The notes below the pieces were generated by a model. It worked only from the letters and a program-made list of their open reading frames with translations, ran no database searches and was not told the DNA's origin. From a virus, in IMG/VR virus record IMGVR_UViG_3300021373_001554, positions 1-32,860 of that record: 32,860 nt of DNA. The stretch is one strand, 5' to 3'. The position numbers and the translations under genes were made by a program. Positions 6,595 through 13,087 of the stretch are shown here, in pieces (position 1 is the stretch's first letter; the number at the start of each line of letters is the position of its first letter).

Positions 6595-7953
6595 ATGGCG
6601 ACAGGTTCACAAAAGGTAAAAACACCAACGGGTTGGAACGCAACTCGAGGTGCATGGGTAAAAACAGCATCTAATACATGGAAAGATGTAGACCAAATCT
6701 ACATCAAAACTCCAAGTGGATGGAATAATGCTTCAGGTCAAGAAGTAACTCAGATACCTTATCCTTACATTGCAAACGCACAAAATCCATTTATAAGAGA
6801 TGCACAACAACCGTATCCTTACATTGCGAATGCACAGAATCCTGTAATTAGAGATGCACAACAACCGTATCCTTATATTGCGAATGCACAAAGTCCTTAC
6901 ATTGCTCAAGGTAGGCAACCTTCTACTTATCAACATAGGTCTCCATTAATATATCAGAATCCAGTTTCTGCTCAAGAACCAAATATTAGGTCAGCACAAG
7001 AACCTAATATTAGGTCAGCACAAGAACCAAACATAAGAGATGCAAGACAACCTTCGACTTATAATCATAGGTCACCATTTACATATAGAAATCCAGTAAA
7101 TGGAAGACAACCTTTTACTTACAACTATAGGTCACCATTTACATATAGAAATCCTGTAAATTATCAAGAACCACATATTAGAAATGGAAGAAGTCCTGGT
7201 CTTTATCGAAATCCAGGTTCTGCTCAACAACCTAATATCAGAAATGCAAGAACACCGAGAGGATACAGAAATCCAGTAAATGGAAGAGAACCTAATATTA
7301 GAAGTGGTCAAACACCATTTACATATAATGCTAGACAACCTACTATCGTTCAATCGCCAAGAAACGGACAACAACCTGTTATTGGAATAGGTTCATTCCA
7401 ACAACCATATCCGTATGATACATTCCCTGGAGGATTTGGTGGTGGTTGCTTCAGTGCTGGTTCAATGGTAATGATGGGAGATGGAACTTATTCACCAATA
7501 GAGTCATTGATTGTTGGAAACTTAGTAATGTCTTGGAATGAAAATCTAAAAGTATTAGAGCAGAAAGAGATTAAGTTGATGATGACTCCAAAAATATGTC
7601 CAATCTACGATGTAGCATTCTCTGATGGAACTATCTTAAATGTAACAGATGGTCACCCATTATTATTATCAAACGGTCAATGGGGAACAATGAATGTTGA
7701 TAAATGTGTAGAAGACCACCCATGGATGGAAGGTATTAATACACACGAGATAATTGTTGGTGATAAAATTATGAACGAAACTGATTGTCTCCATTTCGAT
7801 AAACAAGACGTAATAGGAAGTGAAATCATATCTATTTCAGAAAACTCTGAAATGGAAGTTTACAATGTCAGTGAAGTGGCAGATAATCACACTTATATAG
7901 TTGATGGGTTAGTAGTTCATAACCTAAGAACAGGAAACGAGGCAAAAAGATAA
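6595..7953 (+). CDS. Pro/Arg/Tyr repeat protein with C-terminal Hint (intein-like) domain
   Basis: 452 residues in three parts. Residues 1-54 hold two similar segments (TPTGWNATRGAWVKT and TPSGWNNAS). Residues 55-275 are short repeats: three 18-residue units starting PYPYIANAQ, then many 6-8 residue units such as QEPNIRSA, RSPFTYRN and PVNGRQ. Residues 285-443 form a Hint domain: Cys285 after GGFGGG opens block A (CFSAGSMVMMGDGTYSPIES), T351-x-x-H354 is block B, and VYNVSEVADNHTYIVDGLVV, then His442-Asn443, is the C-terminal block. No homing endonuclease fits in 159 residues. The residue after Asn443 is Leu, not Cys/Ser/Thr, so cleavage as in bacterial intein-like domains is more likely than splicing. 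Probably a self-processing virion protein. Confidence 0.82.
   Translation: MATGSQKVKTPTGWNATRGAWVKTASNTWKDVDQIYIKTPSGWNNASGQEVTQIPYPYIANAQNPFIRDAQQPYPYIANAQNPVIRDAQQPYPYIANAQSPYIAQGRQPSTYQHRSPLIYQNPVSAQEPNIRSAQEPNIRSAQEPNIRDARQPSTYNHRSPFTYRNPVNGRQPFTYNYRSPFTYRNPVNYQEPHIRNGRSPGLYRNPGSAQQPNIRNARTPRGYRNPVNGREPNIRSGQTPFTYNARQPTIVQSPRNGQQPVIGIGSFQQPYPYDTFPGGFGGGCFSAGSMVMMGDGTYSPIESLIVGNLVMSWNENLKVLEQKEIKLMMTPKICPIYDVAFSDGTILNVTDGHPLLLSNGQWGTMNVDKCVEDHPWMEGINTHEIIVGDKIMNETDCLHFDKQDVIGSEIISISENSEMEVYNVSEVADNHTYIVDGLVVHNLRTGNEAKR
6757..6918 (+). repeat. Three 54-bp tandem repeats (18-residue units)
   Basis: Units at 6757-6810, 6811-6864 and 6865-6918 encode PYPYIANAQNPFIRDAQQ and two variants; the third diverges at its end. 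They lie at the start of the repeat region of the Hint protein. Confidence 0.8.
6973..7044 (+). repeat. Three 24-bp tandem repeats (QEPNIRSA units)
   Basis: Units at 6973-6996 and 6997-7020 differ by a single base; 7021-7044 is diverged. Each encodes Q-E-P-N-I-R-[SD]-A. In-frame expansion or contraction by slippage is plausible. Confidence 0.8.
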
Positions 7954-7969
7954 TGAGAGGTAATAAATA

Positions 7970-8698
7970 ATGCCACAAGGTCAATCAGTAGTAGCATATT
8001 CATTTAGTTATCGTGTGCCATTTACGTATAGGGTTTCTGCATCTTCGCAAAATCCATATATTGCAAATGCTAGACAACCTTTCACTTATAACTATAGGTC
8101 ACCATTTACATATAGAAATCCTGTAGGATATCAGTTACCGTTTACGTATAACTATGGTTCACCATTTACATTTCAGACACCTACTTCTTATCAACAACCT
8201 TTCACTTACAACTTTAGGTCACCAGGCACATACAGAAGTCCAGTAAATGGTAGACAACCTAATATTAGAAATGGTCAAACACCATTTACATATAGAAACC
8301 CAGTTTCTGCTCAACAACCTAATATTAGAAACAATCAAGCACCGTTTACTTATAACCATAGGTCACCGTTTACTTATAACCATAGGTCACCGTTTACTTA
8401 TAACCATAGGTCACCGTTTACATACAGAAATCCTGTAAGTCAACAAGAACCTAATATACGTAATGCACAAGCACCATTCACGTATCAGCATAGACAACCT
8501 GTTACGTATCAAAGAACTGGTCAAACACCATTCACGTATCAGCATAGAAGTCCTTCTACATATGCAAGACAAGGTCAAACACCTTTCACATATCAACATA
8601 GAAGTCCTTCAACTTACGCAACACAAGGAAGAACACCTGAAGCAAGATGGGACGGAGAAGTATCGCAACAATGGCCTGCATCTCCAATAACTGCATAA
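7970..8698 (+). CDS. Pro/Arg/Tyr repeat protein without Hint domain
   Basis: 242 residues, almost entirely the same repeat type as the preceding protein: QPFTYNYRSPFTYRNPV, QPNIRNGQTPFTYRNPVS, then TPFTYQHRSPSTYA copies near the C-terminus. It lacks the GW-rich start and the Hint domain. The period between prolines alternates between about 6 and 8 residues. GAGAGG (7955-7960) is the ribosome site. The short gap after the Hint gene suggests co-translation. The regular aromatic/Arg/Pro spacing suggests an extended or beta-solenoid fibre, but no fold is certain. No signal peptide or transmembrane segment is visible. Confidence 0.75.
   Translation: MPQGQSVVAYSFSYRVPFTYRVSASSQNPYIANARQPFTYNYRSPFTYRNPVGYQLPFTYNYGSPFTFQTPTSYQQPFTYNFRSPGTYRSPVNGRQPNIRNGQTPFTYRNPVSAQQPNIRNNQAPFTYNHRSPFTYNHRSPFTYNHRSPFTYRNPVSQQEPNIRNAQAPFTYQHRQPVTYQRTGQTPFTYQHRSPSTYARQGQTPFTYQHRSPSTYATQGRTPEARWDGEVSQQWPASPITA
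8342..8413 (+). repeat. Three perfect 24-bp tandem repeats
   Basis: Identical copies at 8342-8365, 8366-8389 and 8390-8413, each encoding the eight-residue unit P-F-T-Y-N-H-R-S. Perfect identity at DNA level indicates recent duplication, in contrast to the diverged units around them. Confidence 0.92.
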
Positions 8699-10349: not shown

Positions 10350-10901
10350 ATGAATATGTTTATATACGATGAGAACGGTAATCTCGTCATAAGAAAACCG
10401 AACGGACTAGAATATACCTTTGAAAACACTGATAAACCAAATCTTGGTTTTGACTTTGATGTTGTTGTTTACGATGATATAGAAGTTAAAATTACAGAAT
10501 GGAAAGATGGTGAAGATTTTGATAATCAACAAAAAATTAATCTGAATGAAACAGAGATTGATGCTATTGAGCAGTATATTGAAAATTCTGCACCACCAGA
10601 AGGAGTATCATTAAATCAACAGTATAGTAATGAACTAGAAAATTTGTGTAATGATTACGTAAATTCACAAATTCAGTCTTATGGATTTTCAGATTTAGTA
10701 GATGTTATGGCAGCTGCTCGTGAAGGTTCTAATCACCCTCTCAGGTCAGATGCAAGAAGAACGTTAGAATATTATGACCAAATCTGGAACATTTACATAA
10801 ATGTAATGGAAGAAATAAGACATACTAGAGAAGATGTTCTAAAACCTTTCCAAGATTATTCTGCCCATTTTCCTGTACCACGTCCAGCATTAATCGGTTA
10901 A
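10350..10901 (+). CDS. Uncharacterised acidic protein
   Basis: 183 residues from the ATG at 10350 (MNMFIYDENGNLVIRK). A GTG two codons upstream (10344) is possible but is itself part of the likely Shine-Dalgarno GGAG. The N-terminal part looks beta-rich (GLEYTFENTD, FDVVVYDDIEVKI). The C-terminal half is helical (SDARRTLEYYDQIWNIYINV). No known domain recognised. It is the first gene behind a consensus sigma70 promoter. Its stop overlaps the start of the next gene (TAATG), so it belongs to the oxygenase operon. Confidence 0.65.
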   Translation: MNMFIYDENGNLVIRKPNGLEYTFENTDKPNLGFDFDVVVYDDIEVKITEWKDGEDFDNQQKINLNETEIDAIEQYIENSAPPEGVSLNQQYSNELENLCNDYVNSQIQSYGFSDLVDVMAAAREGSNHPLRSDARRTLEYYDQIWNIYINVMEEIRHTREDVLKPFQDYSAHFPVPRPALIG

Positions 10902-11569
10902 TGAAACTAGATGTCGAATACATCGACAAACCGTTTCACGTTGTCGAATTACCACTTACAAAGATTTATGTAATTGATGATTACCTAGAAACATCTATAC
11001 ATCATTCTATTAATGATACTTTCACTAAGGCATCAATTTGGGCAAAAGGAAATGAAGTAAGAGGAGATAGTCCAACAGGATTACCTCATCATCAATTTTG
11101 GGGTGCTAGTTTCTTACGAGGAGATGAAGAAGATAAAAATTGTCTTAGGTCTTTATATCTAGCAAAAGCTTTTAATGAAAGAATACAAACAGATTTTGGT
11201 TTTAAATGGATTAGATTTCAATATATGGGTTTGAATTCACAAACACAAGGGTTACATGGAACAACTCATTCAGATTGTCCACAAGAAGATGCGTGGAATC
11301 TATCATTTTTATATTATTATAATACATTCTGGAATTCAAATTGGGGTGGCACATTGAGATTTTATGATGACCATCAACAAGGTTTAGATGGACGTAATGA
11401 ACATATACAAAATCATCAAATCGCAGAAGTTGAATTCAAACCTAATAGATTGTTAATGTTTGATGGAAGAATACCACATGGTGCAGATGCGCCAAATGAA
11501 AACGCAAGATATGCCGATAGACGTTCAATTGTATTAAGAGGCGATGAGGTTGAAATATGCCAACAATAG
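10901..11569 (+). CDS. 2OG-Fe(II) oxygenase
   Basis: 222 residues with the double-stranded beta-helix signature of the 2-oxoglutarate/Fe(II) dioxygenases: H123-S-D125 (HxD iron ligands), distal H193 in IPHGADAP, and an Arg pair 207-208 before SIVLRG that would bind the 2-oxoglutarate carboxylate. The strand GGTLRFYDD lies between them. Members hydroxylate proteins, nucleic acids or small molecules; marine T4-like phages often carry several, mostly with unknown substrates. It is coupled at both ends (TAATG with the previous gene, 13-nt overlap with the next). Confidence 0.85.
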   Translation: MKLDVEYIDKPFHVVELPLTKIYVIDDYLETSIHHSINDTFTKASIWAKGNEVRGDSPTGLPHHQFWGASFLRGDEEDKNCLRSLYLAKAFNERIQTDFGFKWIRFQYMGLNSQTQGLHGTTHSDCPQEDAWNLSFLYYYNTFWNSNWGGTLRFYDDHQQGLDGRNEHIQNHQIAEVEFKPNRLLMFDGRIPHGADAPNENARYADRRSIVLRGDEVEICQQ

Positions 11570-12411
11570 ATTTCATAGCACATAACGAAAAAACAATAAG
11601 AGACTTCAAACCAGTCTTAGCAAAATCTATATCTCCCGATTGGTGGAAAAAAGCAAAGGTCGGTATGCATATTACTGGTGACTATGTGCAAACAATAAGG
11701 TCATGTCCTGCTATGGACGATTGGTTAAAAAGTGGTTGGTATGTTTTAGCAAATAGAGATATAGATGTTATAATGTATGATAATCAAAGTGTTACGAGAG
11801 AATTCAAAGAAGAGGGAGAAAAAGATTTGCCAAGAGTAGCATCACCATCTCACCCAAGTCATCAATATTTAAATTCATTCGAATATTTAGGTCAAGATGC
11901 ACCAGTGAAAGATGCATTTAAGATGAGAAATCCATGGAACATAAAAACTCCACCTGGCTATTCTTGTTTCTATCTAGACCCATTTTTATTTCAAAACAAA
12001 TACTTTGCAACATGGCAAGGAATCATAGATACTGATAAATTTAATACCAACCAAGATAACTCTCAAATCATTTTCTATCCAAAAGTTAATCATTCATTTA
12101 CAATTAAAAAGGGCACACCTATGTGTCAAATTATACCATACAAAAGAGATACTTGGACAGCAACTTATCAATTGCGTAGTTCAAAAAACTGGTTTAACAA
12201 TGAATCATTGCATACATTAGAAGATGAAAATAGGTCAATTGCAGATTGGGGAAGACATCATAAATATTCTGGATTAAGAGAAGAAGATATGAGCAAAATG
12301 GGTCCTTACAGAAATGAAGGATATTGGCAAGAGAAAGGTCAATTTTATTCTGAAGAAGAAAATCCACCACCAGAATGCCCATTTCACAAAGAGAATAAAG
12401 ATGTCAGTTAA
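11557..12411 (+). CDS. Uncharacterised protein between two oxygenases (DUF6065-like?)
   Basis: 284 residues. Features: KSISPDWWKKAKVG near the N-terminus, TIRSCPAMDDWLKSGW around 45-60, NPWNIKTPPGYSCFYLDPFL in the middle, FYPKVNHSFTIKKGTPMCQI, and a C-terminal CPFHK. The 'P.i.dw..sGw.v...' and 'W.i.tPpGYS.l...P' pattern recalls an uncharacterised family I associate with DUF6065, often next to oxygenases in marine phages; this name is from memory. The fold may be beta-rich. It overlaps the flanking oxygenase genes by 13 and 11 nt, so it probably works with them. Confidence 0.7.
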   Translation: MPTIDFIAHNEKTIRDFKPVLAKSISPDWWKKAKVGMHITGDYVQTIRSCPAMDDWLKSGWYVLANRDIDVIMYDNQSVTREFKEEGEKDLPRVASPSHPSHQYLNSFEYLGQDAPVKDAFKMRNPWNIKTPPGYSCFYLDPFLFQNKYFATWQGIIDTDKFNTNQDNSQIIFYPKVNHSFTIKKGTPMCQIIPYKRDTWTATYQLRSSKNWFNNESLHTLEDENRSIADWGRHHKYSGLREEDMSKMGPYRNEGYWQEKGQFYSEEENPPPECPFHKENKDVS

Positions 12412-13087
12412 CATATTATTTCCAGCATTCGTTTTCGAGAGAAATCATTTAGGTGAAGATGAACATATTGAAGAAGGAATGAATGCAGAGTATTTTAGTA
12501 TACTTAAGAATGAAATAGATGCAATGCGAAGAGATGACCCTGTTGGTAGAGCTGTTTCTAACAGTGGTGGTTGGCAATCAGTAGATAAAATAGAGAGTAA
12601 TCCTATATTCGTCAAAGCAATTAGGTCAATTAAAAGAATGATACGAACTGAGATGATGCCATTTCTTGGTAGAAATGAAAAAGATGTGATTGTAGATTTT
12701 CATAATTCATGGGCAAATATAAATGACAGTGGTGCATGGAATAAACCTCATCTACACAATGGTTGCTTTTACTCCGGAGTCATGTATATAGATGCAGATG
12801 GAACTGAAGGTGATTTTAGTGCAATAGATACAAATCATAAAGTCGTTGGAACTTTTCCAAATACACCTAGAATAGTAGAATCTTGGAAAGTTTCACCAAA
12901 GACTGGTGATGTGTATTTATTTCCTAGTGGTTTGATGCATATGGTCGAACCCAATTACACAAACAAAGAACGTTATAGTATATCATTTAATTTTGATGTT
13001 GCAATTAACTCAGACGATTTCAGAAAAGACATAAAATATCCTGGTTTGAGATTCAAAGTAGACGAAAGCGGCGACATTATAGTCTAA
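12401..13087 (+). CDS. 2OG-Fe(II) oxygenase, TIGR02466-like
   Basis: 228 residues from the ATG at 12401 (MSVNILFPAFVFERN). An in-frame ATG at 12314 would add 29 lysine-rich residues lying inside the previous gene and is unlikely. Motifs of the 2OG-FeII_Oxy_5/TIGR02466 type: WANINDSGAWNKPHLHNGCF, H117/H119, SGVMYID, then GDVYLFPSGLMHMVEPN with H180, and ERYSISFN with R191. It is likely a hydroxylase; the substrate is unknown. It is the last gene of the operon behind the sigma70 promoter at 10312. Confidence 0.8.
   Translation: MSVNILFPAFVFERNHLGEDEHIEEGMNAEYFSILKNEIDAMRRDDPVGRAVSNSGGWQSVDKIESNPIFVKAIRSIKRMIRTEMMPFLGRNEKDVIVDFHNSWANINDSGAWNKPHLHNGCFYSGVMYIDADGTEGDFSAIDTNHKVVGTFPNTPRIVESWKVSPKTGDVYLFPSGLMHMVEPNYTNKERYSISFNFDVAINSDDFRKDIKYPGLRFKVDESGDIIV

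Follow-up and report, generated by a model that had tools for sequence, protein, structure and literature searches.

The known bacterial intein-like (BIL) domains are described from bacterial proteins, and the known N-cleaving families with a Hint fold (hedgehog and B-type BIL) do not retain a terminal His-Asn pair. Type A BILs form a thioester at their N-terminal side, and cleavage at their C-terminal side proceeds by cyclisation of an asparagine (PMC4031507). They can also ligate their flanks, the thioester then being attacked by the amine that has been freed, a reaction that takes place without a nucleophile at the residue following the domain (+1) and in which cleavage products dominate (PMC4031507), although a second review holds that A-type BILs cannot ligate flanks (PMC7765530). 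A Magnetospirillum BIL with Tyr at +1 did not splice until this residue was changed to Cys (PMC4031507). BIL2 of BUBL1 from Tetrahymena thermophila is reported to join its N-terminal flank to a lysine through an isopeptide bond, dispensing a ubiquitin-like domain to several substrates (PMC8616854). In the open-access papers searched, phage tail fibres are nowhere described as carrying Hint or BIL domains; the phiCbK and Rak2-like terminase cases were rejected, being true inteins in enzymes.

The window analysed here, a virus record of 32,860 bases, is a genome fragment from an uncultured T4-like phage. Structural PHROG families of phages are matched by its sheath protein, terminase, portal and major head protein. 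This phage is most likely marine, since its portal shares 54% identity with the portals of Methylophilales phage Melnitz and Pelagibacter phage Mosig. As the preliminary description of this DNA had it, a repeat protein is encoded at 6595..7953; the reading frame is on the plus strand and specifies 452 aa, and homologues of this gene occur on 74 viral-contig loci. The protein begins with a conserved N-terminal domain (residues 1-50, KVKTPTGWN ... KTPSGWN, 6595..6744), the most invariant portion of the full-length alignment A2, followed by proline-centred repeats such as PYIANAQ, PNIRSAQE and PFTYRNPV (about residues 51-272, 6745..7410). AlphaFold2 modelled the repeat region with a confidence of about 30 and no predicted secondary structure, so that the structure of the repeats is uninterpretable from the model. 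Next come the glycine-rich linker GGFGGG (residues 279-284, 7429..7446), a Hint domain of 159 residues (285-443, 7447..7923) and the C-terminal tail LRTGNEAKR (residues 444-452, 7924..7950), which includes Lys451; all of these features lie on the plus strand. Gly284 is the -1 residue of the Hint, and glycine occupies this position in 21/21 distinct fibre Hints, while the ten residues before Cys1 include 2-8 glycines in all 19 full-length Hint-bearing proteins.

The fibre gene has structural and tail genes for neighbours. On its downstream side there is a second repeat protein of 242 aa (7970..8698, plus strand), which shares repeats with the fibre protein, has no Hint and accompanies the fibre gene in every tabulated locus. 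The downstream region also encodes 2-oxoglutarate/Fe(II) oxygenases and a protein of the glycosyltransferase-8-like type. The two oxygenase genes (10901-11569 and 12314-13087) are situated 3' of both proline-rich repeat proteins in a region of conserved gene order, and hydroxylation of the proline-rich repeats by these enzymes is a possibility. Because the fibre family is absent from every cultured phage searched (0 relatives among the phage records searched), we infer the location of the 452-aa protein from its repeats and tail-gene neighbourhood, which suggest that it is probably a virion, tail-fibre-like protein.

The Hint domain was delimited with a profile built from 14 relatives of the window's domain (A1), AlphaFold2 and Foldseek. 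Its catalytic positions are Cys285, the predicted N-terminal nucleophile of block A (7447..7449), Thr351-x-x-His354 of block B (7645..7656, with Thr351 at 7645-7647 and His354 at 7654-7656), and His442-Asn443 of block G (7918..7923). The preliminary description had placed each of these residues correctly, along with Leu444 after Asn443, the nine remaining residues and the glycine-rich stretch immediately before Cys285. Its central claim, a complete self-processing Hint domain on a repeat protein, is well supported by the invariant catalytic residues, purifying selection and predicted fold described below. Single-sequence Pfam matches were weak and consistent (Intein_splicing, E 6e-6; Hint, E 2e-4; both under the curated cut-offs). 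Meanwhile, profile A1 matched solved Hint structures in the PDB, the best being the bacterial intein-like domain 2lwy (E 5e-13), and many inteins too. The AlphaFold2 model of the 159 residues had a mean pLDDT of 94, and Foldseek related it to 53 PDB chains at E<=0.001, with inteins, BIL and hedgehog domains among the matches listed. The nearest fold was Tetrahymena BUBL1 BIL2 (E 1e-8, TM 0.77), followed by inteins, hedgehog and 2lwy. The Pfam AXH (ataxin-1) model gave very high scores to the Hint domains of L118, L103, L131 and others, with E down to 7e-38, and the PDB matches of profile A1 included a structure of ataxin-1; either the model is contaminated with Hint sequences or the fold relation is genuine.

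Judged by its sequence features, the window's Hint is an A-type BIL domain. It combines a predicted Hint fold, Cys1, T-x-x-H and a terminal His-Asn with the lack of Cys, Ser or Thr at +1, and the site it occupies is variable and belongs to a non-conserved protein, the fibre tip differing between close relatives. Other classes were considered and rejected. A class 1 intein is ruled out by Leu444 at +1 (Cys, Ser or Thr in 0/21 fibre Hints) and by the site, a junction between poly-Gly and tail in a repeat protein instead of a conserved site of a conserved protein. A B-type BIL is ruled out by His442-Asn443, as this type has no intein-like block G, and a pretoxin-Hint (PT-HINT) by the nine-residue tail, which holds no toxin domain; the PT-HINT match had an E of 0.12. 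The terminal His-Asn, with only nine residues and no sterol-recognition region behind it, likewise rules out a hedgehog Hog domain. Of the two comparisons drawn in the preliminary description, the hedgehog-type one thus fits poorly, since hedgehog-type domains have no terminal His-Asn and here every copy does, and the bacterial intein-like one proved the better match.

The comparison drew on viral contigs and covered 92 distinct Hint domains related to one another, 21 of the fibre type and 71 others. Counted over sequences that are not independent of phylogeny, Cys1 and the block-B Thr/Ser were retained in 92/92 domains, the block-B His in 91/92 and the terminal His-Asn in 90/92 (21/21 fibre Hints and 69/71 others). 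All 21 fibre Hints keep Gly-1, Cys1, Thr/Ser67, His70 and His-Asn, with identities to the window's Hint down to 28%, and their +1 residue is F, M, G, Y, L, I or K. In alignment A1 only 10/159 columns were invariant, and Cys1, the block-B His, the penultimate His and the Asn were four of them; random placement would put four catalytic positions among those ten with a chance of 8e-6. The closest Hint pairs (dS below 0.15) displayed an omega of about 0.18-0.26, indicating that the Hint codons are under purifying selection. This pattern indicates that the catalytic residues are retained for the chemistry of the Hint, and autoprocessing of the fibre Hint is strongly predicted.

The terminal His-Asn bears on which side of the domain is in use. 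If only the N-terminal side were active, as in hedgehog or B-type BIL domains, the Cys285 thioester would hydrolyse and free the fibre while the C-terminal side stayed inert. The intact Cys1 and block B and the lack of a nucleophile at +1 agree with such a course, which we nevertheless hold to be quite improbable: every fibre copy keeps the His-Asn that hedgehog and B-type BIL domains do not keep, and there is no sterol-binding or other region behind the domain. The pair is retained even though only 4-29 residues follow it and it would be superfluous for N-terminal cleavage alone, which counts for use of the C-terminal side. Since it is present in every fibre copy, the C-terminal-side chemistry is probably used, and excision of the Hint, by hydrolysis, ligation or both, would be expected.

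New here is that the same fibre family also occurs without the Hint, with poly-Gly directly before a similar short tail. Among 52 distinct complete fibres, 19 carry the Hint and 33 do not. The 33 include L091, in which the fibre gene looks split, with the Hint in another frame than the repeats and neighbours closely matching those of L083; this is probably a frameshift or assembly error, and L091 was therefore set aside as a case of recent Hint loss. Where the Hint is missing, the fibre finishes with some other domain or with a short tail, which in many cases comes straight after a Gly run. A typical Hint-bearing end reads GGGGGGGG, Hint, FNNQGLPIGQK, and typical Hint-less ends read GGGGGGGGG-FYPQDLK and GGGGGGGGG-FNSYMPHFDMR. 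Particularly informative are the Hint-bearing L021 and the Hint-less L052, which share about 80% DNA identity on both sides of the gene (2.8 kb upstream, 2.3 kb downstream). The two fibres can be aligned through GGGG, after which L021 continues with the Hint and ISTK, and L052 with GGGGFFPQQLK.

The residues behind Asn443 resemble the tail with which Hint-less relatives naturally end, whose pattern is poly-Gly, often Phe, and a short tail with a final Lys or Arg. Phe follows the Gly run in 10/15 Hint-less members and starts 8/19 Hint-bearing tails (P 5e-7 on composition). When near copies were collapsed the signal fell to P 1e-4 (13 representatives under 70% identity) and 0.04 (8 under 50%), and we regard the Phe likeness as marginal at 50% clustering. 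The last residue is Lys or Arg in 16 of the 19 Hint-bearing tails, a signal still strong after the same collapse. The tail likeness as a whole is drawn from short, fast-changing sequence, and the tail counts, too, carry a phylogenetic dependence. Taken together, the L021/L052 pair and the tail comparison indicate that the Hint is placed in the fibre tip like an insert, with poly-Gly on one side and the tail on the other. Were it excised precisely and the flanks ligated, a Hint-less tip would result. The domain is also dispensable, as the same lineage includes phages without it.

Based on these findings, we consider it likely that a self-processing Hint, of the kind known as A-type BIL, interrupts the tip of this phage repeat protein and is removed by autoprocessing. 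We infer the cleavage and its outcome, and the course of the reaction is modelled on known BIL chemistry. The Hint fold would bring the Gly284-Cys285 and Asn443-Leu444 bonds close together. Cys285, assisted by Thr351 and His354, would convert the Gly284-Cys285 bond to a thioester, and Asn443, assisted by His442, would cyclise and free the tail LRTGNEAKR. Water could then hydrolyse the thioester, in which case GGFGGG would be the end of the fibre, or alternatively the freed Leu444 amine could attack it, which would give GGFGGG-LRTGNEAKR. By either route the Hint would be removed and the mature tip would resemble that of the Hint-less relatives. Ligation is the less certain outcome because the second review denies it to A-type BILs (PMC7765530). 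The preliminary description had expected no splicing; it was right that Leu444 is no +1 nucleophile, but the conclusion is not secure, given that the tail resembles Hint-less tails and that A-type BILs can ligate (PMC4031507). Counting against removal of the Hint is the poor activity of some Hint folds with intact motifs, such as the Magnetospirillum BIL (PMC4031507). As for the gain to the phage, one guess is that a glycine-rich tip is held back or shielded until assembly; covalent attachment of the fibre elsewhere is possible.

Such attachment would follow if the thioester were transferred to another amine, chiefly that of a lysine, so that the fibre became cross-linked or anchored. Gly284 might be isopeptide-linked to Lys451, in its own chain or an adjacent one, or to an amine on some surface. 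The nearest fold, BUBL1 BIL2, is reported to form just such a bond to lysine (PMC8616854). Lys occurs in 19/19 Hint-bearing tails (within the last two residues in 18/19), and the repeat region is almost free of it, with 7 Lys in 6,221 residues between position 50 and the Hint in Hint-bearing members. Only 6/23 Hint-less repeat-ending relatives have Lys in their last 12 residues (Fisher P 5e-7 against Hint-bearing members, phylogeny ignored), and Lys is the +1 residue in 44/71 Hints of other phage proteins. However, some Hint-less relatives have a basic C-terminus too, so that the lysine is perhaps an older feature of the tail, and the tail-lysine evidence is suggestive only, since Hint-less tails of some clades end in Lys. 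Moreover, Lys hardly ever occupies the +1 position of fibre Hints. Nor do Hint-bearing loci have a partner gene of their own, the genes around the window's fibre occurring with and without the Hint. We therefore rate transfer to lysine as rather unlikely.

The distribution of the domain provided insights into its history. On the tree of fibre Hints, one cluster holds 20 of the 21, with L064 as the exception; since they group together in this way, the simplest reading is one main Hint origin in the fibre family, followed by losses and transfers. When the Hint label is mapped onto a tree of the glycosyltransferase encoded nearby, it has to change six times, once on account of L091 (about five without it). 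These changes, the insert-like site and the lack of a homing endonuclease would suit a decayed mini-intein, a selfish remnant of no use to the phage. That reading appears extremely improbable in view of the purifying selection, the full catalytic sets and the absence of Cys, Ser or Thr at +1 from all 21 copies although inteins need one of them. In addition, the fibre Hints form essentially one group, which argues for an old, stable state instead of decay. The window and L005 share 98% identity in fibre residues 1-50 and 87% DNA identity downstream, yet their Hints share only 44% and fall on different branches of the Hint tree (with modest support). Being so alike around the Hint and so different within it, the pair suggests that the fibre tip, including the Hint, is exchanged as a cassette. 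Receptor-binding tips are swapped between close relatives in the same way, as would fit a Hint fold reused as an uncleaved structural or adhesive fibre tip that performs no chemistry. We find this very unlikely, as unused catalytic residues would not stay invariant over such divergence.

The Hint profile also matched other marine phage proteins, namely tail proteins and tandem arrays. In the L103 tail protein (phrog_2048) the Hint again lies behind poly-Gly. This protein type (L103, L107, L113, L124, L133, L142, L145, L151 and L157) displays a Gly-rich stretch, the Hint, His-Asn-Lys and a short charged tail, a layout equal to that of the window's fibre in an unrelated protein. The Hint forms the extreme C-terminus of a DUF4815 protein adjoining a baseplate wedge gene in L112 and of a Phage-tail_3 protein in L139. 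In L154 (3734-4846) the Hint is inserted, between Gly-Ala-Gly and Lys, in a tail assembly protein resembling lambda gpI; a gpK-like gene lies upstream and a gpJ-like gene downstream, the K-I-J order of lambda. This is reminiscent of the Tetrahymena BUBL arrangement of ubiquitin-like domain, BIL and acceptor Lys. Tandem arrays hold two to three full Hints, some with partial copies, at spacings down to two residues (L118, L101, L106, L100). The array proteins (L118:3168-5903, L101:3624-6353, L106, L100, L120, L138, L143) are large marine phage proteins of about 900 aa with a PHROG 21587 match in the Hint part, and several end exactly in His-Asn-Lys. A Hint search of 50,697 phage records yielded only Vibrio phage matches, most annotated as helicase and taken as inteins; wider Hint queries of phage records added a terminase and unnamed proteins.

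These findings raise the idea that marine phages use Hints as energy-free ligases of tail proteins, joining the fibre's terminal glycine, taken from the Hint thioester, to a lysine of its own tail, of an adjacent subunit or of some other surface, to yield covalently branched or cross-linked fibres. We think this unlikely; if true, it would be a viral parallel to the ubiquitin-dispensing Tetrahymena BIL2, and L154 would be a further case. Removal of the Hint by autoprocessing, if it takes place, would mean that protein self-processing is built into a phage fibre tip. An active domain would also suggest a new route by which phages bring tail parts to maturity or link them covalently. It would moreover be a source of compact Hint domains working beside poly-glycine. 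Since natural relatives with and without the Hint exist in matching loci, the purpose of BIL domains becomes directly testable.

Among systems with a related role, Peptidase S74 and the intramolecular chaperones of phage tail fibres also form a C-terminal, self-removing fibre domain (PMC7824862). The analogy is functional only, as the Ser/Lys autopeptidase differs from the fibre Hint in fold and chemistry. Fold matches among viral structure predictions (BFVD) include entries of uncultured Caudovirales named 'Hint domain containing protein', labels that are automatic only; the names of some of the matched entries refer to collagen-repeat or fibronectin domains. The hedgehog Hog-Hint (1at0) shares with the fibre Hint the fold and a thioester at a Cys behind Gly; Hog has a sterol-recognition region and no terminal His-Asn, and the fibre Hint the reverse. 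Class 1 mini-inteins (NpuDnaB 4o1r, SspDnaB 1mi8) have the fold and catalytic blocks in common with it, but they require Cys, Ser or Thr at +1 and occupy conserved sites of essential enzymes, neither of which is true of the fibre Hint. BUBL1 BIL2 (PDB 6tmm, 6y75), which responds to zinc, is the nearest PDB fold, yet its identity to the fibre Hint is 16%, and its N-terminal flank is a ubiquitin-like domain whereas that of the phage protein is a repeat fibre. The A-type BIL of Clostridium thermocellum (2lwy) resembles the fibre Hint in fold, Cys1, T-x-x-H, terminal His-Asn and the lack of Cys, Ser or Thr at +1. A-type BILs further share with it the absence of an endonuclease and a site in the variable region of a non-conserved protein. 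Unlike them, the fibre Hint is found in a phage fibre-like protein, directly behind poly-Gly and with 4-29 residues following.
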